DNA of 34,003 nt from the NCBI GenBank assembly GCA_030605095.1, contig JAUWBJ010000007.1, forward strand, positions 1 to 34,003. Reading direction: 5' to 3'. The notes below the pieces were generated by a model that saw only the letters and a list, made by a program, of their open reading frames with translations, was not told where the DNA came from and ran no database searches. Of the stretch, positions 1,980 through 34,003 are shown one piece after another. The translations under genes were made by a program, and so were the position numbers. The stretch comes from Candidatus Omnitrophota bacterium (GTDB taxonomy: Bacteria > Omnitrophota > Gorgyraeia > JABMRN01 > RBG-13-46-9). The first letter of the stretch is position 1. Each line of letters opens with the position of its first letter.

Positions 1980-2084
1980 GTTAGACTCCCAAATCCGCAA
2001 AGTCTAGCGAGGATAGCAGTATAAAAAGCACAATTTTCAAATGATATTTTTGAAAATATCTATATTTTAAGGAGTCTAACGAGG
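1980..2084 (+). promoter_or_regulatory. Inter-RND leader with inverted repeat overlapping the ribosome-binding site
   Basis: gttagactcc (1980-1989) is the exact reverse complement of ggagtctaac (2071-2080), which contains the GGAG of the RBS. AT-rich hairpin attttcaa/ttgaaaat at 2033-2040/2050-2057. Near-direct repeat agtcta(g/a)cgagg at 2001-2012 and 2073-2084. Confidence 0.4.
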
Positions 2085-5000: not shown

Positions 5001-5248
5001 TATTTCGCGTAGTAATCCGCGCAACGCACGATAGACTTCGGCCCGTCGTTATGACAACCGCAACAACTATAGTGGGCTTATTACCCATGGCCCTGGATAG
5101 GTCAGAAGGTGCCAATCTCTGGAATCCGCTTGCGCTGACGGTAATCGGAGGCATGCTCGTTGCCACACCGTTAACACTCCTTTTGGTTCCCGCCATTTAC
5201 ACCGCCTTTGAACGGTTAAAAGAACTAGCTGTAACCCGCTCGAAATAA
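2084..5248 (+). CDS. RND-family efflux transporter, complete (1054 aa, GTG start)
   Basis: MNLPKLAITRPVATIMFFTAFILIGIMALFRLPVELYPNISF N-terminus, FGLALGVGMLVDNSIVVFENI, GIVVNNGIILVDHINVLR, RLRPVVMTTATTIVGLLPMAL. AAGGAG Shine-Dalgarno at 2069-2074, 9 nt before GTG. Confidence 0.95.
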   Translation: MNLPKLAITRPVATIMFFTAFILIGIMALFRLPVELYPNISFGEISIIIQIRGGIPPTEVETLVTKPIEEVVSTVSHLEEMLSISKEGESTIVLSFEPGIDMDFVALEVREKFARVKNKLPKEVEKPIIAQFKRSDVPIMILAVTSPRRTTEEIRKVVDEVVKERIKRVGGVANVEVGGGRERKILVEVSQRALVKYSLPLERVINMLGLNNLNLLSGEIKKEKDKYLIRTIGEFESLDDIKDIGVSTTPDGSIVRLRDVAEVKDSYLEPTGYARINIRPVVSLYIQKESTGNTIRIAQNVLKEVDKTKTIIPEDMRIVVTSNQADFIRKSIGNLKNSLFKGAILIMLVLAFFLGRVKKEHSIFIAVGLIAMMFIPAKLLYAVLFVFIIVFLSRRELRPIMIVTASIPISVIITFGLMELCNTFFSRGISLTINFITMFGLALGVGMLVDNSIVVFENILKKIEEGQSKINATVWGASEMNLVIMASTLTTVIVFLPMIFVGKEMKLLYGGVAWTVTFSLVVSLFVALTVVPLLSLRVAITKQATNILAPLYRLQKKALFFILKRRFLIFGIVLLVFFVSLFLSRNLGREFIGTTEQNKFTIFIEMPTGAKLDVSNSTVKQVEDLVREVPEVKTFTARVEAWSSKVYVELLPLGQRRRTVADVIDSLRPKVAKIRPAFIYFEEEQEVGTKEIILDLFGYEYDMLRELAISMATRLGGIPKFTDVKIRMREGRPELGLKIDKSKAAQFGLSVSDVATMVHAQMRGLRATLFHTEAREIETIARLEERYRRTFKDLHKLVLVTEDGKEVFMDQISEFEYGLGPSEIWRKDRSRMIQVSANIGDIPLSKAADRIKGALKDIKFPENYFYRLGGNYPSMVKVQKEVFGLWPPGIIFIIIILIYIVLASLFESLYQPLIIMGTVLLASIGAILALFLTGTAIGMGALIGMMMLAGIVVNNGIILVDHINVLRKTQKGLFRVVIRATHDRLRPVVMTTATTIVGLLPMALDRSEGANLWNPLALTVIGGMLVATPLTLLLVPAIYTAFERLKELAVTRSK

Positions 5249-5307: not shown

Positions 5308-5335
5308 TTGACATGACTATATAATATGATATACT
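5308..5335 (+). promoter_or_regulatory. Sigma70-like promoter, extended -10
   Basis: TTGACA (5308-5313), 16-nt spacer, TATACT (5330-5335) preceded by TGa (5327-5329). Confidence 0.65.
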
Positions 5336-5455: not shown

Positions 5456-8400
5456 ATGAAGGCTTGGCGAAAAAAAGACTTGGCAAAAGAAAACACCCCT
5501 GATATAAGCCAATCTATAGAAAGCATGGCGGACTGGAGAACGCGCCATGCTTTTTTATTTAAAACCATCGCTATTATATTAATATTTGCTTTTATACTAT
5601 ATGATATAACATGGGCACAGGGCGGAACCCCTATATGGCGTGCATCCAAACCGGATATTAAAATTAACGGAAGAATCGGCTTAAACGGAATTAAAATCCC
5701 TTATGAGGCAGGAACTACCCAGGATGTCTTCTCAAACGGCGGAGACGAGGTTGTTATTAACATTCAGGATGCCCACGCCTCCCTATCAGCCCAGCAGTCA
5801 ATCGTAAAGATTCTCCAGACCCTCGCTACAAATTATGACCTTGATTTAATAGCGCTTGAAGGCGCGGAAGGACCAATAGATATATCGCTCTTAAGAACCT
5901 TCCCTGACCCGGAAATCCGCAGAGAAACTGCCGAATATCTTATGCGCAAAGGCAAGATGTCAGCAGGTGAATTCTTCTCCGTTGTTTCCGAAAAGCCAAT
6001 AAAGCTCTATGGAATAGAAAATAACGCATTATATAAGCAGAATATAGAAGCCCTGGAAAGGGTTATGGCGGGGAAGATAGAGAGCCTGAAGAATATAGGG
6101 GCGATTTTGCGCACCCTTAAAGCGCTCGAATCCAAAATTTATTCTAAGGACTTGAAGCAACTCAATAAAAACTCCATCCTTCACCATGACGGAAAACTTG
6201 CCTTTACCTCTCACTGGGATTTTATATCAAAGTTAGCGAGACGCAATGATATCAAAATCGTTATTTTTGAGAATTTATCGAAACTTTTAAAATCGATAGA
6301 GCTTGAGAAAGATACAGACTTCCGAAAAGCGAATGAAGAAAGAAAGCTTTTGATAGACGAACTTTCGAAAGTCCTCCCCAAGCGGGAACTTGAAAAACTG
6401 GTCCTGGAATCACTCTCCTTCAAAATGGGCAAAATCTCCCAGTCCGAGTTCCACCAGTATCTTGTAAGACTTTCCGAAGATATCGAGATTTCAGCCGAAC
6501 CCTATTCAAATCTAATTAAATTTACGCGTTATATCACGATTTACGAGGACATTGATTTAATAACGCTTTTCCAGGAAGTAGAAGAATTCGAGGACTACAT
6601 ACGCGAAAAAATCTTCCGAAATGGCGAAGAACGCACGTTTTATAACCTTACCAAGACCGCAAGAACAATAAAGAAACTTTTCGAAATCTCCCTCAACAAT
6701 GCCGATTACAATTTTATTATCAGTAAAAAGAGATATTTTGACAGAACCCTTCTTAGCGAATTCATCAAGAAAAGCTATCTAAAATACAAACTCCCCTTTG
6801 AGCATACCTACGACCTCGATGTAATCTTTGACAATATGAAAGAAGCCGTAGAATTTTACAATATAGCCCAGAGCCGTAATAACGCGATGATTTCAAATAC
6901 CATCCAGGCAATGAGACAAAACGGCGAAGAGGTCGCAGCCCTCATAACAGGCGGTTTCCACTCAAAGGGCCTTGCCGGCCTTTTGAAGGAAAAGGGCCTT
7001 TCGTATCTTGTCATCATGCCGAAATTCAAAGACGGAGAGCAGCGTCCCTATATAGCGATTCTTACCAATAAACGCCAGCCGTATGAGGAACTTCTTGAGA
7101 CAGGCGAATACATCTTGGCGGTAGAGGCCTATTTTGCTTCAGACCGCAAGCCAAGCGAATTAAACGAATTAATATTCTATTCAGTATCTCGGAAAGTTTA
7201 CGAAAAGAACTACACAAATGAAGAGCTTTTCCCTGTGGTAACAGGATGGTATGAGATATATAGAAATGGATATGAAGCCAGGCAAAGACGAGGGGAAACG
7301 ACAGGCTCGGTTACACCCAAGTATCTCGCGAAGCTACTTGGCTTGGAACTTGATGCGGGCGGGAACGTCATAGGCAGGCGGGATGACCAAGGGATAATCG
7401 CGGCCAAGACAAAAGACGGCGAGATTGTTATAGGTTGGAAGGTTGAAGGAGAGTTTATACACGAACTTGTGCTGGAACAAAATGAACAGGGCGAATGGAA
7501 TATGGATATGGCGACTCGCCCGCAAAGACGCGCCTTTGCGCAGAAAATCAGAAAATGGACCGAAGCTGGAAAACGAGAGGAACAACGTGTTGAAGAAATT
7601 GTCCAGGCAAGCTTTGATCAAATAAACACATTGGAATTATTGGATTTCGGTAATGATACAGCGGTAAGACAGAGATCTCGCATTATTGATAGTGTAAAAG
7701 AAGCTATGCTTACAGAAGACGGCTACTTCGAGCCGGGTGCGGAAATAAGGGATATCGAGGATGTAGTTATCAAGATAATGCGGAGAAAAAATTATGCCGT
7801 ACCCGCAAACTGGCGCTTAAACCGCAAGTTATCGGAGAGTATACAGAAATTTGCTGAAATAGCAAAATTAGCGGTACTGGAAGCCAGAGCCGAAGTTACA
7901 CCAGCCGAACCCGTTCCGCTTGTTGAAGCACCACCTGAAGTTCCAAAAATCGCTTTACCCGTAGGCGGCGGGATAGATGTTAAAAAAATACAAGATTTTA
8001 CACCAGAACAACTGATTGATTATCTTAAAGGAGGCAATTGGAGTCAAATAGGTGATGTTGTAAGAATAATAAGCACAGACCAGGAAAAACTAGACAACTT
8101 TAAAGTGCAGCTTATCCCAGCACTTGTAGAAGCTGCACCACAGAAAGGCCAAATTACCCCGGTCCTATTATTCGAATGCCTCAAACAAACAGACCTCCTT
8201 CACCAAGCTGGCAAAATTATAGAGGTGTTAAAACCAGATTCAGCAAAGTTAGCGGAATTTAACCGCTTGCTCGTTGAAAAAGAATATATTTCTGTCGATA
8301 GCGTAATAAAAGAAATTGAAAGTGCAATCGAAAGAATAAGTGATACCTCTATAAGAAGTCGAATAAAAGCCGGTTTTGTCGTAGGGTCTGTTTCAGATCT

Positions 8401-11400
8401 TTCTGAGAGTGGTAAGACACTGGCTCGTTTGGTAGGAGACATCGATGTCTTTGTAGGCGTTTCAAAGTATGATTCTGAAAAAGATAGAAGGGTGAAAACT
8501 GTTATTGAAAGTACCCTTACAAATGCAATTAAGGGTAAAAAGATTGATATTCGAATAGTTCCTGCAAATAATTTAGAAGAAACTATCGGGGCTACCGCAT
8601 TAGTAACGATAGAAGAATTGCAGATGGAACTAGAATCCATAGATTTTGAATATGCGGGTCAATCTGAAACAGAGCGCAATATAAGATTTATTAAAACCTA
8701 CCTCAAAACCGAACTTTTAATCGGAAAGCCCAAATTTGGTAATATTAGAGCGAGATTTCTGAAAGACCCTACCAATTCAGCTGCCGACCTAAGGGGAGAG
8801 ATCGAGGCTTCGGGTAGGATCCTGCGGCTTATCGAACTTTTAAGAGACACAACTAAACGCGACGGACTGATTAAGCAAGTTAAGAACGTTCTAAGAAAAA
8901 GTCTGATAGAACTAGCAAAACCGCGTACGGATAGGGTTGCAGCAAAACCGCGCATGAAAGAAGATACTAAAGAGCTTTCCTTAAAACGCCTTGTTGCGAG
9001 TATATCGGCACTAGAGGAGGTATTAAGGGAGCCGGAAAAAGTCAGTGCCGCTACAATACGTGATGCGGAGAAAAAAATGCGCGAAGCAAAAGAGGCGGCT
9101 GGCGATGTACCGGAAGAAGTTAACGACGACTTTCTAAGGATGACGAGCAAAGCGATTGGGGCATTACAGGTAAAAGAGAGGGATTTGGGAATCCACAAGT
9201 ACTTTACAGGCAAGGCAGGCGAACAAGTTAGCAAACCCCCTGATTTCCAGGGTCCTTTTGGACAGTTTCTTGCGAATATGGCGCTACTGCTTCAGGACTT
9301 ACGTCGCGAAAACATAAGCGTTGAGTCATTGCAGGATGCGATAACAAGCGCAAGCGATGCAAGACAAGCTTTAAGAGATAGATTTGAGAGAGACAAAACT
9401 TTTTACCTCGATTGTAAAGATAAACATTATGAAACCGTGCTTTCTTATATAAAGGAAATAAACACTGAATTTGCAAGACTCAAATATGACACTAAAATAC
9501 TAACCCCTATACAAAAATTTCTCGGCAGAGACGTAGACGAGAGTATAGAAAAGTCTAAAAAAATAATTGAAACAGCAAATCAAAAACTAATCCAAATTCA
9601 AAGACAGGAAAAAGAAAAACCCGAACAGCAGGATGCCAAACTCAAATCCTCAGTTACTAGATTTCGCCATGCTTACACAAGAATTAGCCCAATTCTAACG
9701 CTGGCTTCAATAGCTATTATTGTTGTTTCAATTCTTGGTATAATATTTTTGGTAAATAGAAGACCGTCAACCGCACCTGTTTCCCCCACTGCAACAGTTA
9801 GATCAACATCAGGTCGTGAGATAATCAATATAAATCCCGCTAATTTTATAATACAGGATTCCGAAGGGCAAGACGAGCTTTTCACTACTATTCGGGAGAA
9901 TAATTACACCGGATATATTCTTGAATTTAAATTTAGAAAAGGAAGTAAATTTAAAATACAGCTCGGAGTTAAAAACCATGAATATAAAAGTATATATTCA
10001 GAAAATATTTATCCGGACAAAGATGGCATAGCAAGATTTAACCCTTCCAACAGAAGGGAATGCACAGTTTATGAATTCGAAGATCTTAGCAATGTCAGTT
10101 CGGTAATCTGCAAACTTTGGGAAGTTTCAGGTAAAAAAGCACAAGGTGCATTAGAATATGTACGTTTTGTGCCTGCTGGTATTGTGGGTCAGACTATACC
10201 ATCTACACCGCCAGTTAAAACTATTATAACACCACCGACTAAAACCGTTGAAGAAGTAAGAACGCCTACTGAAGTTGAGCAAGCAGAACCTTCCAGAGAT
10301 AGGGAAGCCCCCACACCAGAGATATTTAATATCCCCTTAAACCAAAGCAACTGGGTTCCGCAAACATATCAGGACAGCCAGGCAGTCTCAAGTGTTCGAC
10401 AGGCAAAAGACGGTAAGTCGTTGGAACTGGTCACTTCTATTAGGGGTAGAAGCCCAACCCATGAAAAAGGAGAGACATTTATAGATTTAGTGAATGTATT
10501 CGGTAAGACATTTGACTTCAGAAATACAACGATAAAAGCAGTAATAGAAGTACCAGAAGAATTTATAGGAGAGACCAGCCGACCTAATGGTTTTCAACTG
10601 TTCATAAAAGATGCTGCTTGGAATAGCCAATATGGACCGTGGCATAATGTAACTGGTTCGGGAATAATTGAAGTAACATATAGTCCACAAGAAAAAGGTA
10701 CACCACCCGGTGGCTTTACGCAAGGACCTATTAATCCATCGCAGGGGCGTCTGTTGGGAATAAAGGTTGCCGCCGGTGTCGGCTCAGGATATAAAGGAAC
10801 ACCTACAATCAAGGTAAGATCCATTACCGTTGAGAGCAAACTAAAGAAAGCACCTCCGGTTAAAACTACACCTTATCTTAGGAAAGTTGCTAAACCAAGT
10901 CCAGCTCTAGCTATAAATGAATTCCAGAAGTTATGCGGAATCAGTATGTACTACAGTGCCCCAACCTATGGGAAAGATATCGGCGGAAACTATGGATTCA
11001 GCAGGCGAGAAGCTGAGCTAACAAAAAAATTTACCGAGTTTAAGCAAAACGGCATTAATGTAGTTCGCATATTTACCTTCTGCGATTTAAGGAATAATGC
11101 TATACGTTTCGACTCTCAAGGAAAACCAACAGGATATAACCTCGCAGCACTTGAGGATTTCAAAGCTTTAATCAGCGCGGCAAAGAAGGCAAAAATAAAA
11201 CTAATTCCTACTCTCTTTGACTTCCATATCGCTAATAAGGTCTCAGAAGAACGAGGCACAAAAGTCGGCGAGCATCCGAATCTTCTTACAAACCCTGTCC
11301 ATAAGCAAGCCCTGCTTGATGTATTCAGAGGCTTTTTAACCGAACTTCAAAAGTACATTAAGCAAAATGACTTAGAAGACGCCATCCTGGCCTGGGAGCC

Positions 11401-26400: not shown

Positions 26401-29400
26401 CATTATTATAAATCCAGATACGGGTGAATATGTGGGTATAAAGGATAGTAAAAAGCCGGGTGATATCGAGATAACAAAATTTCTATATGATTCAGCCGAT
26501 TCGGACAATGTTTATAGTATGCCTTTAACCGGCCCGGATTACGAGAGCGGATACTTCTATCTCAACAAGAACATAAGGGGCGAAATCCGTCTGATTATGA
26601 AACTTAAGTTAAAGCCAGACGTAACGTTCGAGGAAATAATTGAACGCGCACAAACAAGAAAATCCGATAAGCCGAGCGCAGAAGTAACTATGTTCGATTC
26701 AACGGACGCGGTGGCGCAATCGCTTTATGCATATCCCAGAGAAGCTATGACTTATCCTGGAACGAACCTCCCGGTCGTATTTTCCATCGAAGAGCCGGGC
26801 GGGAAGGTCCAGGATATATATATGTACCCTCTTCTGGATGAGAAGAAGGGGCTGGTTGATAAAACTCGCGGGACGAGACTCCTTGTCAAAAAAACCACCA
26901 CTCCCGCCGCCAAAGAGGTTGAGTTGGATGCAGGCGGAGTTGAAAACATTACTTCCCTGGATGGCATTACAGCTCTTGACGGCACGCCTTTCGCCGATTT
27001 CAAAGGGCCGCTAAAATACTTGGTAGAAGAAGATGTGCACTGGGTTAAAACCGGGATAACAGAGGATAATCTTCAATCGATATCCAAAAAGAGTGGTTTG
27101 TCTTTGACGCAAGAAGACTTAGATTCTATATATATAGAGTATTTCAATCCAGACGGTTCACCCGCAAAAGGACCATTCGGATTTGAATTAGGTACGAATG
27201 ATGCGATGCGCGAAAAACTGGAAAAAACAGTAAGAGCCAGAGCGCCTGATTTTGAACTGCCCAACAACAGAGATCTTCTTAACAAAATATACGACATAAG
27301 AACGAGAAATACCTTAAGTCAAGCCCAATTAGATTACTTCATCTCCCGCTCGAGCCAGCTTAAAAAAGTTTTCTTCCAGTATCTAAAGACCCATTTAGCC
27401 AATAAAAGATTATCCGACCGCGCCTATAATCAAGACTTCTATAATAAAACTTGTCTCGATGCCTTTATGTGGTTTACAGAGCAAATTCTTTTTGCCAGCC
27501 ACCCAGAGCTATCTTTCTATTCAGGCGATTTAGATAAACTAGCGGAAGGTATAGTAAAGATAGGTAGATGGGATATTACTGTTGAGGCCATGAATTTTGT
27601 ATTAAATAATGAGAGCGAACTCAGAGAATTGGAGGGAAGTAGGGCAACGAAGAAGGCTATTGAAATGTATCTGGCAACTCTCCATGAGAAGGCCGTTTCA
27701 CAATTAAAACAGAATCTGACTGATGAAAAGATGAAAGAAGAAATGAGAGAAGCCCTTAATCTTGCAATCGTTACACATGAAAAGATAACAGGAGAGAAAC
27801 CGGCGGGTTATGAAGAAGCATGGAAAAAAATCAGCGATGAAATGCAACTAAACAGACTGAAATTCTTAAGCAAGGCTCTAATTCCGCTTGGTATACTTAT
27901 AGGATTAGGTACTTTTATCTTTATGTATTTTAGAAAAAGAACCGCGGCAGTATCAAAACAACTTAGAAAACAGAGAAAAGAGGCCATCAGTGAAGTCCGA
28001 GAAGAAAAAGAAACGGGACTACCCAAAGCCAGAGCCTTACCTCCTCAAGTTACCACACCACAACCTCTACCTGCAGGCGCTGAAGCAAAATTAGCCGAAC
28101 ACAGTAAAAAGCTCGAAGATACAAAAAAACTAATCCTTAGTTTTAATAAACCTGTAAACGCAGCGATTGAAAAAGCTATGTCAATAATAAATAATCCGAA
28201 GAGAATTAACATATTTGATACACAACAATTTCTGCCGATAGATACCAGGAATTTCAAATGGGAGAAGAAAGACACTGAAAATGGTTACACCATTTACAAA
28301 AAGCACTTTGCGTCAGAAGAGGTACTCAGGGCATTCAATATTGTCTTTTCTGACGACCAAACAAGAGCATATATAAAAGAACTGGATAACAAAGGAGATG
28401 TAAAAACAGAATATATCTACTACACTAACGGCAAGACAGACTGGGATAATAAGAATAACTGGGTAATAAGAGAGGTGGAAGAAGGCAGCGTTACTCATAA
28501 TTACTCAGATTTACACAACGGACGCTTTGAAATAAGTGTTTTTATGCAGGAGGGCAAAGAAAAAACAAGAATAGGTTCTTGCCGGTTTAATACATCAGGA
28601 TATCCAAACGATAAGACAAAATGGCATTTTGACGATAAGTACGAGCAACGACGCGCTGCGGCAATAACGATTAAGCTTGCTTCACTGCAACTGCAGAAGA
28701 AGTTGGAAGAAGCGATAAAAGAAGATCCTTCTTTGAAGAAACTTCTTTCACCTGTGAGTTTACATCAGTCATTTGGCCCTCCGGGTCTTTACCTAAGAGA
28801 AGGCGGAAGGACAAGAACGCTGGATTTGCATACCACGCTGCAACTGGCTGAAAAAGAGATGGACCTTGTATTAGATGCAGCTACGGGAAGGGACAGCAGT
28901 ATCTATTTTGGCCATGAGAAGAAAACAGACTTTAATCCTGCAAGCCTTACACTCTGGGCAGATGTGTTTGAAGAGGTTGAATATACCGATGGCAAAGAAG
29001 ATATAAAATGGCAAGGCGTTATGCCTGTAGGCGTTAAGGGCGTTGAAGGTAAAAAGCCGGTTCCCACAGGGCGCAAAAAAGGAAAGGGCGTAAAATTAAC
29101 GACATTTGAGACATTAACGCCATTAATAGCGGGATTTGCTATGAGGCTTGATTTGGCCCAGGATATTCTTAGCAGGAGATTCTCCGGAGCTTCTCAGGAA
29201 CTTATAACTGTTAATGAAGCCATAGAGCAGGCGACAACAACAAGAAAAGCCGTGCAGGAAACATACGTAGGGCACCTGGAAGAGATGGGAGACCACTCTT
29301 CACGGCAACCCCTGCGCGAGAGGCACAAATGGAGAATATGGACAATACCTATCCTGACATTCGCCGTTATATTTGTGTTAGGTATAGTAGTATTTTATTT

Positions 29401-32400
29401 TCTACCTCGGCATTTCCCCGGCATATCCAATTTCCCGCCAATATCTGAGATACAAAATGTAGGAATCTGGGAAATGGGAATGGTTGTTATCGGTATATTT
29501 TTCGTTTCAAAAACATTCTTTACTTTACTATTCTGGTCGCTTACCCTTACTGTGCTCCAGAAGCTTCATATCGGAACGACGGGTGTTTACAATCGTTCAG
29601 GCGCAATAGAAGTTACTGATGAAGATATCGGAGTTTCTGTGCCTAACAGGGTTATGAAGGATGCAATTGAAGAACTAGGTATCGGCGTTAAAGGCAAAAC
29701 CTCCGAAGAGATTATTCAGGAGTTGTCTGAGCCATATACAGGCATAACCGGTCTCGCCAGTAGAGCGCGAACTCATACGATAAAGTCACAGAGACCGATA
29801 AACCAACTGAAATTAAGCTCTACCGCAAGGCCGTTTTTCTTTGTTTATCTTAATAGTTTACCAAGAGGGATGTTAATAGAAGCGCTACTCTCTATAGATG
29901 CAATACAAAGCAATGCGATATTAAGAGATGCCCTTACGCGCGAATTACAGGACACACGCAATGCTAATGTAAAAATAAAAATAAACAACAAAGACCTGCT
30001 TGAAAAGGTGGAATCAGTATTAGGCGCTGATGGAGCCGATAACGTCTATAAGAGCTTATACAATATGAGAGGACTATTTATTCATGTTGCGCGATGCACA
30101 CCTTCTTACGGAGAACCATTTATTATAGAACGAGTAAATAAATCAGCGCTTATTACCGACTATCCTAACATTACAGTATGGCCGGCCCTTGTAGAGCACG
30201 ACACCCCCACGACAAACAGATTTACACAACTTATAAAAGAGGGACGATTAGAGCAGGGCAAGGTTTACGCATTCCTATCAAGTCAGAAAGGCGCGCAGCT
30301 TTCCGGCGTCCCCTTATTTATCCACGTAGATAGGCGCTTCAAGAACGGATGGAAGTTGGTTGACAGGATGCCGGAGACAAAATCTGTTGCTACGGGTTAT
30401 TCAATCGCCTTTATGGAAACAGCTGCTGCCGGAAAAGCGCCTGGCTTTGAAAGCGTTCAAGACAACCCCGTTCATGTCATGGAGATTCTCGACGTCGAGG
30501 ATGTTACCGGCGGATTGCAGGTATGGGGTATAGCGACGGCATTCAGGAGAAACACGACACTGGTAGATTACCTTATCGAGCATGTCCTGCGTTACGGTTA
30601 CGATTCGTTGACGCCGAGTGTATTAAAGAAACAAAACCGCGAACTTTATGACGCCAGCATGCGCCTGGGAATAGACCTCTTCAAAATAAAGAAAAAATTG
30701 AAAGAGTATGAAAAATTAAAAAAGAAATTAAGCGAAAAATCGAAAAATAACGCCTATATCCGACATATTGAAGAAGAAATATTCGATGGCATCTATGCCA
30801 AGCTACCATACGAATTTAAGACCGAAGAGTTACGAAAAGCATATCCGGATAGAGAAAAGCTTAAGTGGGTTATATCCGAATTTAAAGAGAGCCAGAGGAG
30901 GGCAATCCTTCAGGGCATACTGCGTTTAAGTCCATATACTAGCGAAAACCCGTTTTCGGTTCAGGATTACGGGCCGTGGTCATTCATAAAGAGGGGTTTG
31001 CTGGCATACAGGAGCTGGGTAAGTATATTATTCGCATTTACAGCTGGAGCAGTAACCATTCCTGTGGTTATTTTGGTAGCATTTTTATCCGGCAGCTATG
31101 TGCTAGCGTTTGTTGTTGCATTCTTAGTATTTCCCCCATTGTGGTTTATAGGGCATTACTCAGGATATAGATTGATAGAGAATTTAAGACGTAGATCTGA
31201 TTGGGTTGAACGATATTTAATAAACAGAAAAAATCCTTTCCCGCTTGATGGAACCACAAATTCATTTTTGGTGCAGGCCCTCACCGGCCAGGACACGCCA
31301 AGAGGTGAATTGCAAAAGCAGCTTTTTGCATACAAAAAAGAACTTTACGCAAAAGGCGAAAAAGATGTTAAAGCACAAAAGGCCCTTGAACTTATGGCGT
31401 TACTACATAAATACAGAGCACTCAATATACATGACCCGAGCAATATCATCGAGGATGCAAACTATGCCGACATCATACCGGAAACTGACCATACGGCCGG
31501 ATATTTACGTGGATTCGGCATGGAAACACGCGAAAAGGATTTGCCGACTCTTGGACCGGAATTCTGGTATCAACGCCAGCGATGGATTACAGTTACGCCT
31601 ACAGGAAGAGCGCTGGAATACCTGCCTGACTCAATGGCTTTCTGGGGCGGCTTGGTTGGTATGGGCCTCGGAGGCGCAATCTTGGGTTCTCGAGGCGACT
31701 GGGGTGTTGTGCTTGGAATAACGGGTGTTATTGTAGGATTTGTTGCAGGCACCTATCTTTTCCGAGGGATAGGGTTTGGAATAGAATGGATGAAAAAGAA
31801 ACTCCATATTGTGAAATACCCGGAACAGAAGACAAGTGTTTTTAAAGCATTAGGATTTACCCAATTCTTTGCATATATCTTTATGCTTTATGGTCTCCCA
31901 TCCACTGTCAAGACAACTTTTATATACGCACTTACGTTATTTTTCGGAACTATTTTTGGTATGCACCTTATGGGAATAGAATCACCCGTTGTGGCACTTT
32001 CGCTCAAACTGCTTCCGCCGATGTTATGGTGGATAGCAAGTATAACAGTGGGTATTATATTATTTATCATACCGGGATACCTAATTTGGGTACAGGCCGT
32101 TGCAGGTGCATTATTATCAGGCGAAGACGATGAGGAACAAGTAAGGATTTCGCTCAATAGGAATAAAGAGACAGCCGAAAAGTTCCAGAATTACAGTATA
32201 GCCAAAAAAATAGACGAGGCAATAGATATCCTAAAGAATAAGCTGCAGGACCAGGCTGCGCGGAAGAAAGTTGCGGATGAATTGGAAGCCCTTATATATG
32301 CTCTTTCCCGGGACCATGATGGTATTGTCTATACCCCTAAGGAGAGGGAGGAACGAATTTTTGATGAACCAACACCTGAAAATCTCGAAAGAGACATAAA

Positions 32401-34003
32401 TATACGGTTATTTATAGATGTGCTGCGGGATAGCTCTATTACAGGGAGGGCGGAGCTTGATGAAGTTATAAGGAAAGCGAAGCGTGTTTCAAGCGATAGG
32501 AAAAACAAGTTAATCAAGGATGTAAAAGAGCGCGCGAATGCCTTGAAGGTGGTAAAAGGGATTATGGGAACTGCCGAAGGAAAGGATATAGATGAAGCTA
32601 AAAAATTGGAGTTTATAAAGTACGAACTCACACAAAAAATAAAAAATACCGGTAAAGGTAATACTTTTGAGATACGGGAATTAAAGATATTACAAAAAGT
32701 CTTCAATAACTGCACAAGCTTAAAAGAGATAAAGAGCGCGCATAAAAAAGAAAGCGACTGGCTCGATAAGACAATTAAAGAGAAAATGAGAGAAATGCAA
32801 GACCGATTGGACAAATACACAGAAGGCCGGGTTGAGGTTGGCTTCAAGACGTTACTCTTCGGAGGCATATTGCCTATCGCAGCAGCAGCGGGATTGGTTA
32901 TCGGCGGCTTCATTACCTGGGTCGGCGCGCTTCCTATATTCATTATAGGAGCAGCTGTTATTATATTGGTTATTCTGTCATACGCAGGTAAGCATATAAA
33001 ACTAGGAAAAATGGCTTATTATTATGCGCATACGCTCGCGGCAAGTTTCTATGTGGGATGGTTTTACTACACCCATATGATACCGGCTAGCTATCTTACC
33101 CTGAAACAGTTACGCATGAAACGAGACAGTTACTGGTCAAGGACCTCTCACGAGGAGAAGGAAGTGCTTGTTGATGACCACTATAGCTATTGGGAACAAA
33201 TAAAGAATCGAGGAAAGACCTTTTACGTAAACGTGAAGCATAAATATCTACTTTATTTTATTATAACGGTGTTACCTGCGTTAATTATCTTCGGTATACC
33301 TTTCATGATGCGCGTAGAAGAGGCCAAAAAGGATAGGTATATAAATGCAGATATTATTCCATATAGCCAGATGTACTATCTGATGTCAGAAGAAAAACCA
33401 GAGAATACATCTGTATTGTACGCATGGGGCGGGATAACACCGGAAGCAAAGAGATTACCTCCTGAATCCTGGATAGAGGCGCTTGATAGAATGAAGGAAG
33501 AGGGATTCGATATTGGAAATAAAGAAGACCTGGCGCGTTTAAAGAAGAAGCTAATAGAAAGATTTACCGCGTGTCCGTATCCTAACGGTAGAAAGGATTT
33601 ATCCAGTTGGATTTTATTTAACACGGATTTATTGATTTTAAGGCATCACATGTATGTTTGGTCTCAGCAAGGGACGGCAGAAGCCGAAAGAGAGGCCAAA
33701 AATGTTAGAAAGTTTTATGAAAATGGTCTGAAATTCTTTGCCTATGATAAGGGTGAACGCGAAAGGATTTTAAGAATTTTAGCGGTTTTAGATGCAAGGG
33801 AAAATATGCGCCAGGAATTAAAACCCAGGAGGCTCGAAGCAGATTGGGAATTCATATTGCTGCAGTTAGAGGCGTATAGAAAGATGATAGAGGAAGAATA
33901 TAGAAAGACTGAAAATGAAAGACATAGAGAGGAATACCATAATCTATTATCTATGATTGAAGATAGGCTACACGCTTCCCGATTGCCAAGCCTCCAAACA
34001 AAG
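5456..34003 (+). CDS. Giant multidomain membrane-associated protein, at least 9516 aa, 3' end outside the window
   Basis: Frame starting at 5456 (second base of every 60-nt line) read by eye to the final codon AAG (34001-34003) without a stop; 28,548 nt = 9,516 codons. The translation is consistently protein-like (amphipathic helices, TM helices, recognisable catalytic motifs). Competing ORFs are short. Confidence 0.93.
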   Translation, partial: MKAWRKKDLAKENTPDISQSIESMADWRTRHAFLFKTIAIILIFAFILYDITWAQGGTPIWRASKPDIKINGRIGLNGIKIPYEAGTTQDVFSNGGDEVVINIQDAHASLSAQQSIVKILQTLATNYDLDLIALEGAEGPIDISLLRTFPDPEIRRETAEYLMRKGKMSAGEFFSVVSEKPIKLYGIENNALYKQNIEALERVMAGKIESLKNIGAILRTLKALESKIYSKDLKQLNKNSILHHDGKLAFTSHWDFISKLARRNDIKIVIFENLSKLLKSIELEKDTDFRKANEERKLLIDELSKVLPKRELEKLVLESLSFKMGKISQSEFHQYLVRLSEDIEISAEPYSNLIKFTRYITIYEDIDLITLFQEVEEFEDYIREKIFRNGEERTFYNLTKTARTIKKLFEISLNNADYNFIISKKRYFDRTLLSEFIKKSYLKYKLPFEHTYDLDVIFDNMKEAVEFYNIAQSRNNAMISNTIQAMRQNGEEVAALITGGFHSKGLAGLLKEKGLSYLVIMPKFKDGEQRPYIAILTNKRQPYEELLETGEYILAVEAYFASDRKPSELNELIFYSVSRKVYEKNYTNEELFPVVTGWYEIYRNGYEARQRRGETTGSVTPKYLAKLLGLELDAGGNVIGRRDDQGIIAAKTKDGEIVIGWKVEGEFIHELVLEQNEQGEWNMDMATRPQRRAFAQKIRKWTEAGKREEQRVEEIVQASFDQINTLELLDFGNDTAVRQRSRIIDSVKEAMLTEDGYFEPGAEIRDIEDVVIKIMRRKNYAVPANWRLNRKLSESIQKFAEIAKLAVLEARAEVTPAEPVPLVEAPPEVPKIALPVGGGIDVKKIQDFTPEQLIDYLKGGNWSQIGDVVRIISTDQEKLDNFKVQLIPALVEAAPQKGQITPVLLFECLKQTDLLHQAGKIIEVLKPDSAKLAEFNRLLVEKEYISVDSVIKEIESAIERISDTSIRSRIKAGFVVGSVSDLSESGKTLARLVGDIDVFVGVSKYDSEKDRRVKTVIESTLTNAIKGKKIDIRIVPANNLEETIGATALVTIEELQMELESIDFEYAGQSETERNIRFIKTYLKTELLIGKPKFGNIRARFLKDPTNSAADLRGEIEASGRILRLIELLRDTTKRDGLIKQVKNVLRKSLIELAKPRTDRVAAKPRMKEDTKELSLKRLVASISALEEVLREPEKVSAATIRDAEKKMREAKEAAGDVPEEVNDDFLRMTSKAIGALQVKERDLGIHKYFTGKAGEQVSKPPDFQGPFGQFLANMALLLQDLRRENISVESLQDAITSASDARQALRDRFERDKTFYLDCKDKHYETVLSYIKEINTEFARLKYDTKILTPIQKFLGRDVDESIEKSKKIIETANQKLIQIQRQEKEKPEQQDAKLKSSVTRFRHAYTRISPILTLASIAIIVVSILGIIFLVNRRPSTAPVSPTATVRSTSGREIININPANFIIQDSEGQDELFTTIRENNYTGYILEFKFRKGSKFKIQLGVKNHEYKSIYSENIYPDKDGIARFNPSNRRECTVYEFEDLSNVSSVICKLWEVSGKKAQGALEYVRFVPAGIVGQTIPSTPPVKTIITPPTKTVEEVRTPTEVEQAEPSRDREAPTPEIFNIPLNQSNWVPQTYQDSQAVSSVRQAKDGKSLELVTSIRGRSPTHEKGETFIDLVNVFGKTFDFRNTTIKAVIEVPEEFIGETSRPNGFQLFIKDAAWNSQYGPWHNVTGSGIIEVTYSPQEKGTPPGGFTQGPINPSQGRLLGIKVAAGVGSGYKGTPTIKVRSITVESKLKKAPPVKTTPYLRKVAKPSPALAINEFQKLCGISMYYSAPTYGKDIGGNYGFSRREAELTKKFTEFKQNGINVVRIFTFCDLRNNAIRFDSQGKPTGYNLAALEDFKALISAAKKAKIKLIPTLFDFHIANKVSEERGTKVGEHPNLLTNPVHKQALLDVFRGFLTELQKYIKQNDLEDAILAWEPMNEPELAGAVELGHIQAFVEDFANLFREVFPNKPISLSTYRRGLLENWIHILRSGDIMQLHYYRNMDGAVPFDALNKPKGELNIPDGVKVIYGEVDPDNVPEALKIIHRNGYDGALFWNDNNHPFIQKIKQFQQWFQEFHPVKGVITLILKRWLQPAVTPILEKGLAKIGIRGPVVDTVFAPVIEEGIFRGIPLVLASLISTQGIPTLQADPLGFVITALMLVISGIIFVHLHRSKEGTAFEKYSIPIAITVVSIWTLFAPVSIGMFLLRMMLIHGAAALPLAFMRSLREEKDEEIAAPIIQAEQLKPEKVTDAEMAEEENLRFAIARARAVGFDINTLPVEKRSDPEAINSAIEEFVYQKSERAEDRTKAVERLEIAFQEAENAVETGDIGSTQEALERLNGVLDEVAKTGLNPAIYEGRRQKIERQLTQTREAARTPKAPEFSKDAMAEAQIWMENLDARTLVLQEISTRAPPKIEILAIALLGIRDFLLMHREAQKALLWVYSQERPQDKLGNLLKLAREKFGGRLDFISYEGEAVIAAARSILPEAVTYYELNINVESAQKEIENTRLAIENARLLHSIGANFSAQYVQKLIHTKADLLRKARILKVYGVSVKAGFLRMSEERLQGNIPFLIKQGYKPSEITPGILQMSEERLQKNIPLLIKQGYKPSEITPNLLQRFAAGDLFLKARERSSAKLVKVADSSGDPVKTANERIQAIAQKGEDIEGRKEEALAKTVYEHVNKETRNALDDKEISTAEALADLEHEVATWEKRITGALISVQRKLTRADELEKLAREKVRLIKERKEKLEDSKDNLITKRSINKLNKLNERIVSLDQKIIMIKTETMPSVPLAQNISDYLTYILNGNYAELPAFMEDTYVTLVSDKYRVTPDTFNAEYLKFYLENFKRLKAIKKDIEAFESKESKNQLSAEELFYRSVVDEVGGYIEEKLKVVRALEKELKDKKTALELEEEKLQSKKIINIYDKRVLKIKQLSHEIAILEKEIKAKRPSEKKILRLLLEKTEKHLVFSVSQEFERNKFYESLSQFGLLVDGGIPLIRDMAVRLVGEAKGRALKEDEKQKIDDELDALFAKREQRIKREISLFLGRNITLSPGKQLKQPSIFKDFVLLTVLKVSKFKNRYAHFSENRKKDFDRELTAICKAAEDDLIEIAFLDFKTTWAKYRFENGKMPKEEYKALTSELQKRQKALRVKEAKILRLFGVDVKAGEEKPTIATKCYSIGKIAAVAAVAAVVTGFVFSNVFMEASYGGQSAPSEPGSIASNIVDNLFGWDAQRAMFLEVPPAVSSVEEEKPVEETPKVEEAEPAEKTKLEEQKEAIAGLFDQANAYLKKAEGLLNKGNTEDTFPETEKASEILGELTSKWLSDEPIVDGDKLTNLQKEINRLSNQRTEIIRAQGLADPRIQRRSELIKRLSAIELAIRNINEKADKFEKEVEYQTVKANVDRMLEALNRDFSEEELKTMQDEIDEINRKLAYADSSVRGSLAIKGPTLTDKRAEIRRIRDRRLEEIEKRDAKEEAAKPIEELPVREIATATKPLLHLFGKKEKYTVVARDVIVSTEGISDGFPFSNDGGNHGIFAPDDVRYGEEVKEGDKAFRAYLVMKNKDGWIRIIDDERDLIKLVGSGYVFEDENGDSIFSEEVTRLAEKGDYRQTLIEHRIDVAGEQRQQILEQIKETGKITEENILRLILSSSQTLGENLEIEEAEAKVFKTRSGDLRIQLGWTGLIGKGFPIPYTLWLNLTKIDDPAKKAYVGEAKEKYFATYDRIRNVQARRVADVLSDIAMLRELRAQKIDMEADKNAMKKALEIEKSRGIPENVEYINAILDLNQATLKELDNKESDLELKIHSAMGKGSKGKILTGKETGLTMSQIKQLLRQSDIDTNITYAVKEAQHRVNWAEWKQVEAKLLSERWKGIYGISIFVGESPHGGYAGALPIVDFEDGSKSLTEERAQLMRFQQDINKKWVVYNARQKKKILEELRRRNEGIIKTSENLIAVLGEDASAAEDDWRNGRLDYKAFDKKHAKLKIAQWQHSLLAAERNAIEAELKILLSGLDTQIKDEDKVKLERKGGVITVADVLRYARLTSQDIGDIKRARLAKRELEELLKEAKERGVITIENMGTGVNIGESWESDWKRTSFPRLGTGQSDWGIFFLRFGAKVDRTRDLKIQVLETAKKILDYEEEKAKGLVDNHSVRALLNYRDAGLRIGHMGRLKDLSRQNREAVYGDGTSTVDEKRQADILIKQADHFSETANSHLASAASGIATSTRVEEIKGISGIEDVDLLNLLSQTELEVPGIRLKLLKEQMEMAKKMVEIARKGDSFSVDFSMALARSSGYGYISRDIGLNVGLGPDILGPFKYLFMNVKAEELSMELVEKLYQEEKAELQKEARVLDEKVKGLRKETKVVKQRISDLEAELDYLKSKVITLKMVEAARRGEAELDKTGLRETEIGRAPVELKQAELEQAKDYLRHKHSELNIAEFERKAYQDIERAPRMRALSVKESAKIETGLEKVKHVVEYFDKFLFGYKATSEFVYFRELPSAIEPYQAHIQSVMTEFHRLFVWNEANQAYEAREFDGDTGESLSTPEGIERRDNVLYELEYLDDEIELVEHLEKKKAELKKLKVETGAYFGLRWIFYDPTDTAGETFPLGISAITEKSRAEYENAAREYNKLKAEIIKNEELIKELSRLEEKADEELDKFEKETLPKSRDREDRNRRNKLRAYINQLKQQIEGANTDLNIANATLPYVMDKIGSVEVETEEGKREKIKPSKLKEQSEKQFAELWENIKSEDPTLKRLKALQEKAAIEYRATDFVHTRLLPPIDVKGIVGIPVTEASGDLIWTLYDSGLTTANRLLAWIKWQRNNLKSMSAKEAEKTNLKHIFDELESAAGGLTNAKEAKNSFLDLLAKIVSKPDVGKIELYNFIEVAEKAQKATVLYADAFSQYDEAMANFILYLKTRGVDYKKYLPTKEELETKVRPDGEVIPDAGKADITGAVVDYKVPPEVIKTEDIQAETNVVLDRFGVDKYPEIFEIMSRSGFAEMFKDRYNRGGYTSYEAERALFAMSSWGPRILKDAARLREKGIHIPDYYGRFLYEVTRLDKSGKINDAKKGYPGLFNMFGLADYIQFQEEALIKAKYGRFMKTKVAGFKAKNDGREPKNRKELNKIKQDVIEDIHYIALKYYELLISRIEGPRDEAREAQIRARISELSIRKTQREKERGWLAVRPIAQSIAGRELEIYNNLSDISVLDRVYSFMVMQGMDLDQLENVKDVMLLKPLLNEAFGDYSKTKDAALREELELDRLFKVTRALLEGCYPGQSLKEIFGKDIPKEDRDKRFEEKLNYLKDKIIPMMKGPDGKFLSDYEPSSVLWDALYFANNRGKAYPAKDADGRRLTYYVDSEKEQVFVHYGSEDFASEIWNGTFDETAWQEGEKRPIEGWLYQKIEEPEVPPLKHEKNELKQDLEEIKGMLETPIPQSVPVSKLHQLVNNILLSSLGAVPEDGMDLMGMRWAAETYEDSQGIRGVMKDISTGGLRLNANLKGQHPNRSKGEAYVEFASSRNFNGKKIRMKIKVAPGFAANRMNGVQIALKDNNWKNQYRRWVNVEESGKWITVEYIPTPYDVDQQGGTDRGFDLSNIKRIIVKFAMNDSTQDEFKGILEVKDVEIVDAEEKIEKAEQVELYRDEPITVEPKSIETFVEKSGASFYLEQYERTIGTPDGVSAHYKEILDQFKTLNVRTARVWLTIGSKDSSGIQYSGDGTPVGWKNEKLAIQDLVTLIRIAKETNTKLVLVLHNFDLAQKHKDVLEDPAKREKMIELDRVLLKKAFEKLGSDTKYIEAIETMNEPDNADTSTANTQKFVKAGNVMVRKTTGKPISLGPGKIENGGYWIHMLKPGDIFQIHWYYVFHERPYGKPMFSELKRNIGELNIPDGVRVVIGEAQPNIGSRSIIPGAFDAARESGAEGVWFWDESDSKLSPQFIFDENDYRRTIEQRKEDKRAPDIKPEVEKEKPIPTKPPVKKPAKKEVPPKVEEKIMRPVEKPKPAMPTVEIERKPLRDVLEELGQYITDGRLVEAQNAIQELISSPDVSSKVRDQLEKLSAKLQVNIRAVGLSEADHQFELPDGRIIELKSTVRIPVTVFDKDGNEIGISYLYRVGNETKLSITPEIVKINEVKHRQVEEVWVTFFDERGKAIRTEGWLARISREDALLVALPGAEAPILRETYRYTYDEKNGTKEIEGERYDLFTGEVNYRESLVNDANDVILAKTIRDSSVSETYTKKTLYRRNPETNEITEQNFTILTADEVEHLSSEAKYKYKGKDEFGEEIWDRTSFVNYDTGVTSEKQEPVEIEGKMVPVETGIDIEGRKYINTGGSFHYEYTSRDRGVDYDGTAFTVDVVEHGKPGVFTPVKLGESTVRQRGRILRTQDAQVIPNNTSFEGRTFSFPEGTFPEGIDVNETTYELTLPKALYKYHVTQGFNYETNEVFIAEEQRIIMDEEERLLYKVVTNFEEGKEKGQTEIYRYHPTYRVNEREYNDVIETKIYDREGNEIAHRFHQVIFDIRNREKDIWNLLTSDEIVEVTEHNYTDNTDEIKKLRVGKTIEIREDGSRRIRETRKSEDGKVETTVIAEKDLFGNVLSISSSGTIINEDSSKTSFIPHIYEPTPITEETRELKNASGQVVAYISEGKAIFTIGPESKPSEPIVIPRGARWILQTKRDMAKEEVSFGIYDAYGKQIYQDITARFYDLSSPGKILGILHQILIYNPEDNTVKEHATYRETEAGEEVPIVEKTSTLIRYKDSEMDDEWLLIIEKSPRKLYETEYVYQIYNTADGDRFGRMPIASESWNLEDSKRGELLERVKFLYDKEHDERLIIDMANRAGPDGREIPVEAELEEGQIVTGLVTYLMEEKEFESEQWRAPLLRLEDGRFHLDYSKGDLLVQRDRFDNEYYITMHLNRNPDTKKYSVRSAYKGKGVYEFYGVYGKRRIREFFGLDPERIIINPDTGEYVGIKDSKKPGDIEITKFLYDSADSDNVYSMPLTGPDYESGYFYLNKNIRGEIRLIMKLKLKPDVTFEEIIERAQTRKSDKPSAEVTMFDSTDAVAQSLYAYPREAMTYPGTNLPVVFSIEEPGGKVQDIYMYPLLDEKKGLVDKTRGTRLLVKKTTTPAAKEVELDAGGVENITSLDGITALDGTPFADFKGPLKYLVEEDVHWVKTGITEDNLQSISKKSGLSLTQEDLDSIYIEYFNPDGSPAKGPFGFELGTNDAMREKLEKTVRARAPDFELPNNRDLLNKIYDIRTRNTLSQAQLDYFISRSSQLKKVFFQYLKTHLANKRLSDRAYNQDFYNKTCLDAFMWFTEQILFASHPELSFYSGDLDKLAEGIVKIGRWDITVEAMNFVLNNESELRELEGSRATKKAIEMYLATLHEKAVSQLKQNLTDEKMKEEMREALNLAIVTHEKITGEKPAGYEEAWKKISDEMQLNRLKFLSKALIPLGILIGLGTFIFMYFRKRTAAVSKQLRKQRKEAISEVREEKETGLPKARALPPQVTTPQPLPAGAEAKLAEHSKKLEDTKKLILSFNKPVNAAIEKAMSIINNPKRINIFDTQQFLPIDTRNFKWEKKDTENGYTIYKKHFASEEVLRAFNIVFSDDQTRAYIKELDNKGDVKTEYIYYTNGKTDWDNKNNWVIREVEEGSVTHNYSDLHNGRFEISVFMQEGKEKTRIGSCRFNTSGYPNDKTKWHFDDKYEQRRAAAITIKLASLQLQKKLEEAIKEDPSLKKLLSPVSLHQSFGPPGLYLREGGRTRTLDLHTTLQLAEKEMDLVLDAATGRDSSIYFGHEKKTDFNPASLTLWADVFEEVEYTDGKEDIKWQGVMPVGVKGVEGKKPVPTGRKKGKGVKLTTFETLTPLIAGFAMRLDLAQDILSRRFSGASQELITVNEAIEQATTTRKAVQETYVGHLEEMGDHSSRQPLRERHKWRIWTIPILTFAVIFVLGIVVFYFLPRHFPGISNFPPISEIQNVGIWEMGMVVIGIFFVSKTFFTLLFWSLTLTVLQKLHIGTTGVYNRSGAIEVTDEDIGVSVPNRVMKDAIEELGIGVKGKTSEEIIQELSEPYTGITGLASRARTHTIKSQRPINQLKLSSTARPFFFVYLNSLPRGMLIEALLSIDAIQSNAILRDALTRELQDTRNANVKIKINNKDLLEKVESVLGADGADNVYKSLYNMRGLFIHVARCTPSYGEPFIIERVNKSALITDYPNITVWPALVEHDTPTTNRFTQLIKEGRLEQGKVYAFLSSQKGAQLSGVPLFIHVDRRFKNGWKLVDRMPETKSVATGYSIAFMETAAAGKAPGFESVQDNPVHVMEILDVEDVTGGLQVWGIATAFRRNTTLVDYLIEHVLRYGYDSLTPSVLKKQNRELYDASMRLGIDLFKIKKKLKEYEKLKKKLSEKSKNNAYIRHIEEEIFDGIYAKLPYEFKTEELRKAYPDREKLKWVISEFKESQRRAILQGILRLSPYTSENPFSVQDYGPWSFIKRGLLAYRSWVSILFAFTAGAVTIPVVILVAFLSGSYVLAFVVAFLVFPPLWFIGHYSGYRLIENLRRRSDWVERYLINRKNPFPLDGTTNSFLVQALTGQDTPRGELQKQLFAYKKELYAKGEKDVKAQKALELMALLHKYRALNIHDPSNIIEDANYADIIPETDHTAGYLRGFGMETREKDLPTLGPEFWYQRQRWITVTPTGRALEYLPDSMAFWGGLVGMGLGGAILGSRGDWGVVLGITGVIVGFVAGTYLFRGIGFGIEWMKKKLHIVKYPEQKTSVFKALGFTQFFAYIFMLYGLPSTVKTTFIYALTLFFGTIFGMHLMGIESPVVALSLKLLPPMLWWIASITVGIILFIIPGYLIWVQAVAGALLSGEDDEEQVRISLNRNKETAEKFQNYSIAKKIDEAIDILKNKLQDQAARKKVADELEALIYALSRDHDGIVYTPKEREERIFDEPTPENLERDINIRLFIDVLRDSSITGRAELDEVIRKAKRVSSDRKNKLIKDVKERANALKVVKGIMGTAEGKDIDEAKKLEFIKYELTQKIKNTGKGNTFEIRELKILQKVFNNCTSLKEIKSAHKKESDWLDKTIKEKMREMQDRLDKYTEGRVEVGFKTLLFGGILPIAAAAGLVIGGFITWVGALPIFIIGAAVIILVILSYAGKHIKLGKMAYYYAHTLAASFYVGWFYYTHMIPASYLTLKQLRMKRDSYWSRTSHEEKEVLVDDHYSYWEQIKNRGKTFYVNVKHKYLLYFIITVLPALIIFGIPFMMRVEEAKKDRYINADIIPYSQMYYLMSEEKPENTSVLYAWGGITPEAKRLPPESWIEALDRMKEEGFDIGNKEDLARLKKKLIERFTACPYPNGRKDLSSWILFNTDLLILRHHMYVWSQQGTAEAEREAKNVRKFYENGLKFFAYDKGERERILRILAVLDARENMRQELKPRRLEADWEFILLQLEAYRKMIEEEYRKTENERHREEYHNLLSMIEDRLHASRLPSLQTK
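5520..5556 (+). terminator. Terminator-like hairpin inside the 5' coding region of the giant ORF (candidate attenuator)
   Basis: aaagcatggcg (5520-5530), loop gactggagaacg, cgccatgcttt (5543-5553), T6 tract 5551-5556. The arms are perfect reverse complements. Confidence 0.55.
5549..5620 (+). other. Signal peptide or N-terminal TM anchor of the giant protein
   Basis: RTRHAFLFKTIAIILIFAFILYDITWA|QGG: basic region, hydrophobic core, possible TWA cleavage site. Confidence 0.75.
5740..7045 (+). other. N-terminal domain with IQDAHAS ... ALEGAEG ... ITGGFHSKG motifs (possibly TIKI/ChaN/erythromycin-esterase-like fold)
   Basis: IQDAH at 5762-5776, LIALEGAEGPIDISLLR about 30-40 aa later, and GGFHSKGLAGLLKEKGLSYLVIMPK near 6944-7020. 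The spacing of Gly/His motifs is reminiscent of TIKI/ChaN-type domains. Confidence 0.4.
8350..8640 (+). other. Nucleotidyltransferase-fold-like domain
   Basis: FVVGS (GS at 8384-8389), GDIDVFV (D codons at 8438 and 8444), KKIDIRIVP (D codon at 8546): GS...DxD...D pattern of the Pol-beta-type NTase superfamily. Confidence 0.45.
9692..9757 (+). other. Single TM helix in the giant protein
   Basis: ILTLASIAIIVVSILGIIFLVNRR. Confidence 0.8.
10330..10850 (+). other. Beta-sandwich CBM-like domain, copy 1
   Basis: IKAVIEVPEEFIGETSRPNGFQLFIKDAAWNSQYGPWHNVTGSGIIEVTYSP...IKVRSITVES, directly before a GH-A-like domain and similar to 21930-22440. Confidence 0.55.
10910..11775 (+). other. Clan GH-A glycoside-hydrolase-like TIM-barrel domain, copy 1
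   Basis: INVVRIFTFCDLR, IKLIPTLFDFH, ILAWEPMNEPEL (acid/base Glu codon 11408-11410, residue 1985), DIMQLHYY, VKVIYGEVDP (nucleophile Glu codon 11681-11683, residue 2076), GALFWND. Confidence 0.75.
11930..12250 (+). other. CPBP (CAAX/ABI-type) intramembrane glutamic protease-like domain embedded in the giant protein
   Basis: VFAPVIEEGIFRGIP (EExxxR, Glu codons 11954-11959), GIIFVHLH (FxxxH, F at 12086, H at 12098), MMLIHGAAALPLAF (H at 12224), in a hydrophobic context. Confidence 0.7.
13268..13441 (+). repeat. 87-bp (29-aa) in-frame tandem repeat, 2 copies
   Basis: Units 13268-13354 and 13355-13441, about 8 differences in 87 nt; MSEERLQ(G/K)NIP(F/L)LIKQGYKPSEITP(GI/NL)LQ. Confidence 0.95.
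15113..15190 (+). other. TM helix with Ala-Ala-Val repeats
   Basis: SIGKIAAVAAVAAVVTGFVFSNVFM; encoded by three tandem gccgctgta units at 15131-15157. Confidence 0.7.
15131..15157 (+). repeat. 9-bp perfect tandem repeat x3 (gccgctgta)
   Basis: Read directly in the sequence. Confidence 0.95.
16590..19720 (+). other. TolC/outer-membrane-efflux-protein-like beta-segment plus long helix repeats (tentative)
   Basis: IQLGWTGLIGKGFPIPYTLWLNLTKIDDPAKKAYVGEAKEKYFATYDRIRNVQARRVADVLSDIAMLRELR; DIGLNVGLGPDILGPFKYLFMNVKAEELSMELVEKLY; AYFGLRWIFYDP...; AEDDWRNGRLDYKAFDKKHAKLKIAQWQHSLLAAERNAIEAELKILLSG. Confidence 0.35.
21930..22440 (+). other. Beta-sandwich CBM-like domain, copy 2
   Basis: IRMKIKVAPGFAANRMNGVQIALKDNNWKNQYRRWVNVEESGKWITVEYIPTPYD...GILEVKDVEIVD, colinear with copy 1 (GFQLFIKDAAWNSQYGPWHNV...). 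Confidence 0.55.
22510..23400 (+). other. Clan GH-A glycoside-hydrolase-like TIM-barrel domain, copy 2
   Basis: VRTARVWLTIG, TKLVLVLHNFD, YIEAIETMNEPDN (acid/base Glu codon 22961-22963, residue 5836), DIFQIHWYY, VRVVIGEAQP (nucleophile Glu codon 23240-23242, residue 5929), GVWFWDES. Shares GELNIPDGV with copy 1. Confidence 0.75.
23400..23590 (+). other. Pro/Lys/Glu-rich low-complexity linker
   Basis: APDIKPEVEKEKPIPTKPPVKKPAKKEVPPKVEEKIMRPVEKPKPAMP. Confidence 0.85.
23770..26960 (+). other. Extended beta-rich repeat-like region (YD/RHS-reminiscent)
   Basis: Recurring short-strand/turn pattern with E-x-Y, DxxG and 'YDxxGxxI' elements (ITVFDKDGNEIG-type, TYDEKNGTKEIEGERYDLFTGEV, KIYDREGNEIAHRF, GIYDAYGKQIYQDITARFYD, EKDLFGNVLSISSSG). 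Confidence 0.45.
27875..27930 (+). other. TM helix
   Basis: ALIPLGILIGLGTFIFMYFRKR. Confidence 0.8.
29340..29580 (+). other. TM helix pair
   Basis: WTIPILTFAVIFVLGIVVFYFLP and MGMVVIGIFFVSKTFFTLLFWSLTLTVL. Confidence 0.8.
31010..33315 (+). other. Polytopic membrane region of the giant protein
   Basis: Hydrophobic segments SILFAFTAGAVTIPVVILVAFLSGSYVLAFVVAFLVFPPLWFIG; MAFWGGLVGMGLGGAILG...VVLGITGVIVGFVAGTYLF; FFAYIFMLYGL...FIYALTLFFGTIFGMHL; LLPPMLWWIASITVGIILFIIPGYLIWV; LLFGGILPIAAAAGLVIGGFITWVGALPIFIIGAAVIILVILSY; YLLYFIITVLPALIIFGIPFMM. Confidence 0.8.

Follow-up and report, generated by a model that had tools for sequence, protein, structure and literature searches.

The window analysed here, the whole 34,003-nucleotide stretch of contig JAUWBJ010000007.1 from a Candidatus Omnitrophota metagenome-assembled genome (MAG; GCA_030605095.1), carries a giant open reading frame (ORF) that begins at position 5456 and is still open at the last codon. 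We interpret the predicted product as an exported, membrane-anchored, multi-module protein of the Omnitrophota cell envelope that processes glycans, with a probability of roughly 0.6, a figure that overlaps with those behind the alternatives weighed below. An exported, surface-acting protein is favoured because the chain is low in cysteine, has an N-terminal anchor and contains modules of glycoside hydrolase family 5 (GH5). Cysteine makes up 0.15% of its residues, against 1.04% in 22 baseline ORFs, which fits the pattern of exported proteins. The window is the entire contig (C95) of the MAG (G000; 109 contigs, 1.37 Mb, 92% complete), and the gene is truncated because its frame reaches the contig end. 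The frame and its start signals are as follows.

5456..34003 (+): giant ORF, 9,516 codons, stop-free, cut by the contig end
5442..5446 (+): Shine-Dalgarno-like AGAGG, 9 bases upstream of the ATG, from sequence
5308..5335 (+): sigma-70-like promoter match TTGACA-16-TATACT, TG-extended, 11/12 matches, by consensus only

Mechanical translation from the ATG gave 9,516 residues and no stop, the window contains no N, and the chance of such a frame staying open, estimated from base composition, is about 1e-285. Using codon usage trained on the two genes upstream, this frame outscored the other five in 184 of 189 overlapping 300-base windows and came close to a tie in the remaining 5, and GC content by codon position was steady over the whole ORF. 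The start is also supported by relatives, which begin MKAWR or MKAWQ. Rfam and tRNA scans returned nothing, and so no catalytic RNA or intron was seen. An earlier note, made from the letters alone, had described an unbroken frame of ordinary coding sequence with a good ribosome-binding site and promoter, missing from the ORF track and belonging to a longer Omnitrophota protein. The translation, frame scoring and start signals bear this description out (the promoter by consensus only), and open-ended ORFs are normally left unlisted in such a track. The proposed lineage also held: when one genome per species was scanned with residues 1-560, five loci came up at 48–87% identity, and all five named nearest relatives are titled Candidatus Omnitrophota.

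The missing length was estimated from homologues, taking as reference point the ED motif at window residue 8665. From the equivalent position to the stop there are 3,706, 4,626 and 4,068 residues in the giants of three other genomes (G099, G126 and G187), which agrees with the note's view that the true protein is longer. These continuations give a projected full length of 12,400–13,300 aa. The available ORF would cover about three quarters of a genuine giant gene, counted from its 5' end. A search of G000 for the missing 3' end, using the continuation from genome G010, found only distant paralogues on contig C11 (28–32%).

The N-terminal part of the protein, which we call the header, is far more widely conserved than the remainder.

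5552..5608 (+): residues 33-51, a signal anchor or signal peptide at the N-terminus, from hydropathy and aligned in relatives
5543..7135 (+): N-terminal header domain, residues 30-560 (~530 aa), from alignment A1 of 28 sequences

In the header alignment a WAQ motif recurs directly after the hydrophobic anchor, and D105, H107, E135 and H502 are invariant across the 28 sequences. Of 99 relatives, 56 have a header match, as do 136 of the 285 genomes sampled from the phylum, some of them in families beyond the class. Searches of plasmid and phage records for the header gave none. Every giant tested has a single significant copy, at its N-terminus. Many further matches are frames of about 500–650 aa, some possibly cut by contig ends, and the header seems also to exist as a stand-alone protein. 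A second header gene is present in the same MAG (C11:12752-22111, 3,119 aa), adjoined by a large open ORF of 1,124 aa.

The header is likely linked to the Tiki/ChaN superfamily, although the link falls short of proof. PF04187 (ChaN) matches five of the 28 header members weakly (best E 0.055; E=0.22 for the window's own header). Scanning the phylum with PF04187 returned four proteins at 1e-5 to 4e-4 from another Omnitrophota family, all of them header members by the A1 profile (2e-53 or better), with the match lying over the header's C-terminal part. Sequence searches of the PDB with the header gave nothing significant.

Two modules resembling GH5 mannanases, each with a carbohydrate-binding module (CBM)-like part, lie far apart on the chain.

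10310..11791 (+): module 1 (residues 1619-2112), a CBM-like part joined to a GH5 mannanase-like part, PF00150 E=3e-6
21965..23410 (+): module 2 (residues 5504-5985), a further copy of the CBM-like and GH5 mannanase-like pair, by similarity to module 1 and the A7 profile

Modules 1 and 2 share 31% identity (E=2e-42), and identity among the GH5 modules is 28–31%. PF00150 matches module members at 3e-6 and 4e-12, with module 1 above the cut-off, and profile A7 matches GH5 beta-mannanases in the PDB at E=2.9e-17. The two catalytic Glu are invariant: both copies keep the acid/base Glu (in NEP) and the nucleophile Glu (E1985/E2076 in module 1, E5836/E5929 in module 2), together with the HxY motif. 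With the family profile and the catalytic residues in place, modules 1 and 2 are predicted hydrolases.

The rest of the body includes a conserved region with no family match and, towards the contig end, a region of many transmembrane (TM) segments with some features of glycosyltransferase family 2 (GT2).

23834..27388 (+): residues 6127-7311 (1,185 residues), kept in the G099 giant by sequence comparison and matching no family
28739..33976 (+): multi-TM region, residues 7762-9507, conserved in homologous giants, 33-35% identity to G010 and G126
31403..32170 (+): GT2-like core, IIED (31445) and QRQRW (31571)

Region 6127-7311 is 33% identical to its G099 counterpart by tblastn/blastp and 38% in alignment, and among the giants fetched it is kept only there. 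In the multi-TM region, the ED and QRxRW motifs ahead of the TM helices are invariant in 16 of 16 homologues (alignment A4), as in processive GT2 enzymes. PF13632 matches two of 11 homologues of this region (best E=8e-4), and one header giant (G066) holds a PF13632 GT2 domain above the cut-off. A DUF2207_C match (PF20990, 32597-32980, E=7e-7) lies just under the cut-off in the C-terminal membrane region, and hydropathy, by a crude method, peaks at about 10-15 separate places along the giant. An NCBIfam scan of the giant gave nothing above cut-off, and sequence searches of the PDB with the C-terminal region gave nothing significant. A nucleotidyltransferase-like motif (GSVSDLSES...GDIDVFV) occurs at 8370-8460 inside the ORF, with no family match.

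Homologous giants were found as closed, N-free frames in several other genomes: 9,648 aa in G099, 11,297 aa in G088, 10,442 and 9,585 aa in G126, and 11,228, 10,585 and 12,923 aa in G187. They also occur in arrays. Four consecutive header giants are present in G099 (9,648, 10,535, 3,231 and 4,058 aa) and four in G126, while G187 has three complete and the start of a fourth. Module content and order vary between giants: the window's giant runs header, two GH5 modules, region 6127-7311 and membrane region; that of G099 runs header, GH5, a region matching 6127-7311 and membrane region; and those of G126 and G187 run header, membrane region and GH5. Two further domains were noted in the C-terminal part of a G099 giant (L061, G099:C14).

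L061:12248-12436: phosphodiester glycosidase domain, PF09992, 3e-10
L061:13853-14155: cytidine-deaminase-like domain, PF00383, 3e-13

Masked or gapped records can mimic longer giants, as masked N stretches pass for open frame and give apparent ORF lengths of 26-35 thousand aa. A 26,281-aa frame in G126 (C70, L094-L097) was rejected, as N accounts for 70.8 of its 78.8 kb, and one of 35,105 aa in G278 (C37, L147-L152) was unusable, with 72 kb masked. The same-genus record CP070780.1 (G001, L038-L044), titled 'chromosome', is a set of pieces strung together across 100-N gaps, and two of the gaps fall within header genes. At the place syntenic with the window it appeared to hold merely a 1,134-aa header protein, a candidate that was rejected since the frame crosses a 100-N join. 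Counts of giants are low estimates, because contigs and scaffolds often break within these genes.

If the protein is indeed an exported glycan-processing component of the envelope, the N-terminal anchor would thread the chain through Sec and the Tiki/ChaN-like header would be placed outside the inner membrane. The GH5/CBM-like modules could then act at the cell surface by hydrolysing glycans that resemble beta-mannan, while the C-terminal GT2-like membrane region perhaps makes or handles surface polysaccharide. By analogy, the literature on related giants suggests that such proteins may serve in attacks on other cells or in feeding on them (PMC10066038).

Several results weigh against this interpretation. 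The family scan left most of the 9,516 residues without a match. For the header, Foldseek with an AlphaFold (AF2) model (pLDDT 83) found nothing significant, the best E being 0.13, with 3b55 (Q81BN2_BACCR) at E 0.73. The charge distribution around the TM segment at residues 1413-1431 misfits a simple alternation with module 1 outside, leaving the topology ambiguous. In the GT2-like region, hhalign comparisons (P 0.036-0.22) were not significant, Foldseek of residues ~8030-8900 gave no fold match (from a poor model, pLDDT 64), and no complete GT-A domain with a significant profile or fold match was found in residues 7762-9507. Because these profile-profile and fold comparisons were non-significant, the region is called GT2-like rather than GT2; its motifs are suggestive only.

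The lack of an enzyme match over most of the protein would also suit a giant adhesin or coat, a mainly structural surface layer for attachment in which the GH5/CBM-like modules bind rather than cut. We consider this a doubtful explanation, as the catalytic Glu pair and HxY motif are kept in both GH5 copies, and the family scan found no discoidin, laminin-G or dockerin match in the giant. Somewhat less probable is an assembly in the inner membrane that synthesises polysaccharide, in which the GH5 modules would edit, by hydrolysis, the exopolysaccharide made by the cell itself. A GT2-like multi-TM region and GH5 modules do share one chain, and a GT2 domain is present in related giants, but the window's own GT2 match is weak and the N-terminal half of the GT-A fold is unrecognised.

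A further idea is that the chain is a polyprotein that, once exported, is split into individual enzymes, perhaps by the Tiki/ChaN-like header or by a segment resembling an intramembrane protease.

11903..12265 (+): segment with EEGIFR and FVHLH motifs, possibly an intramembrane protease of the CPBP/Rce1 type; the PF02517 match is weak (E=0.018) and under the cut-off

The header is probably related to a superfamily that includes hydrolases, with D, H, E and H invariant, and the CPBP-like motif lies within the chain; as the CPBP match is below cut-off, we regard processing of this kind as improbable. Least credible by far is an assembly or indel-polishing artefact that fused several ordinary genes, for although the contig stops inside the ORF and the same-genus record has 100-N joins within header genes, the ORF frame is best or tied over its full length, two stretches, of 1,185 and ~1,700 residues, have in-frame alignments to independent MAGs, and closed N-free giant frames occur in such MAGs, which makes frameshifting or joining unlikely.

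Upstream of the giant ORF are two genes for RND (AcrB-family) transporters.

1..1974 (+): RND (AcrB-family) transporter gene, 5' end cut by the contig end, PF00873 E=3e-157
2084..5248 (+): second RND (AcrB-family) transporter gene, immediately upstream of the giant ORF, PF00873 E=2e-214
Genomes with RND genes upstream of header ORFs: G001, G003, G004, G015, G038, G071, G074, G088, G094, G099, G278

In G001 both genes are 90% identical to those of the window and are followed by a header gene. Upstream RND genes were found at nine of 29 header loci checked, which had short flanks and in several cases stop at contig ends, and also in G099 and, outside the class, in G278. The RND genes are a conserved neighbour, and header giants often stand directly behind such genes. 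A wider and more tentative proposal, which we think improbable as it stands, is that the header marks a single phylum-wide export and display system, in which the Tiki-like domain, always present once and always first, would deliver or process interchangeable giant bodies, whose genes would stand in tandem, as many as four to an array, beside an RND operon. If this proposal were true, Omnitrophota giants would belong together as a single modular system at the surface, with loading or processing in common, rather than being a set of unrelated oddities.

For the study of such genes, the shared header provides a handle for collecting and comparing Omnitrophota giants, and tandem giants behind RND genes define a neighbourhood to seek in proteomes. 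The GH5 module, present twice with its active site intact, allows a concrete biochemical test.

Among known systems, the GH5 endo-beta-1,4-mannanases (PDB 2c0h, 4oou, 5y6t) share with the window's modules the profile match and the catalytic Glu pair, whereas the modules sit twice inside one giant chain. From the Tiki/ChaN superfamily (PF04187) the header differs by a large helical insertion. Giant ORFs in Omnitrophota, which the earlier note had mentioned, are already known (PMC10066038; PMC12057145), and the window's ORF adds a member. The type case is the 39,678-aa ORF of Velamenicoccus archaeovorus LiM, whose peptides were up 3-fold in attached cells, and that paper describes Omnitrophota giants as showing little conservation and having an obscure function (PMC10066038). 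The header, the tandem arrays and the RND linkage had no mention in the literature passages found by term search, a set that did not cover the West-Roberts preprint; they are useful additions for which we do not claim a first report.

The window's ORF resembles the LiM-type giants in being from Omnitrophota, apparently of the same class, and longer than 20 kb (28.5 kb, open), and in having many TM stretches, few recognisable domains and a link to carbohydrates. A same-class genome (G063) contains a 39,687-codon frame, 40 kb of it masked, which from its length and contiguity looks like the published LiM giant; if it is, the class would be Velamenicoccia. This presumed LiM genome has no header match, unlike the window's giant, and in the parts that could be compared outside the 40 kb of masking the two giants did not match; against other header giants the G063 frame shows weak module similarity (23-33%). 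The giant genes of predatory bacteria described by West-Roberts et al. 2023 (bioRxiv 10.1101/2023.11.21.568195; up to ~85,800 aa, as cited in PMC12057145) encode TM helices together with carbohydrate-degradation domains, as does the giant ORF of the window.
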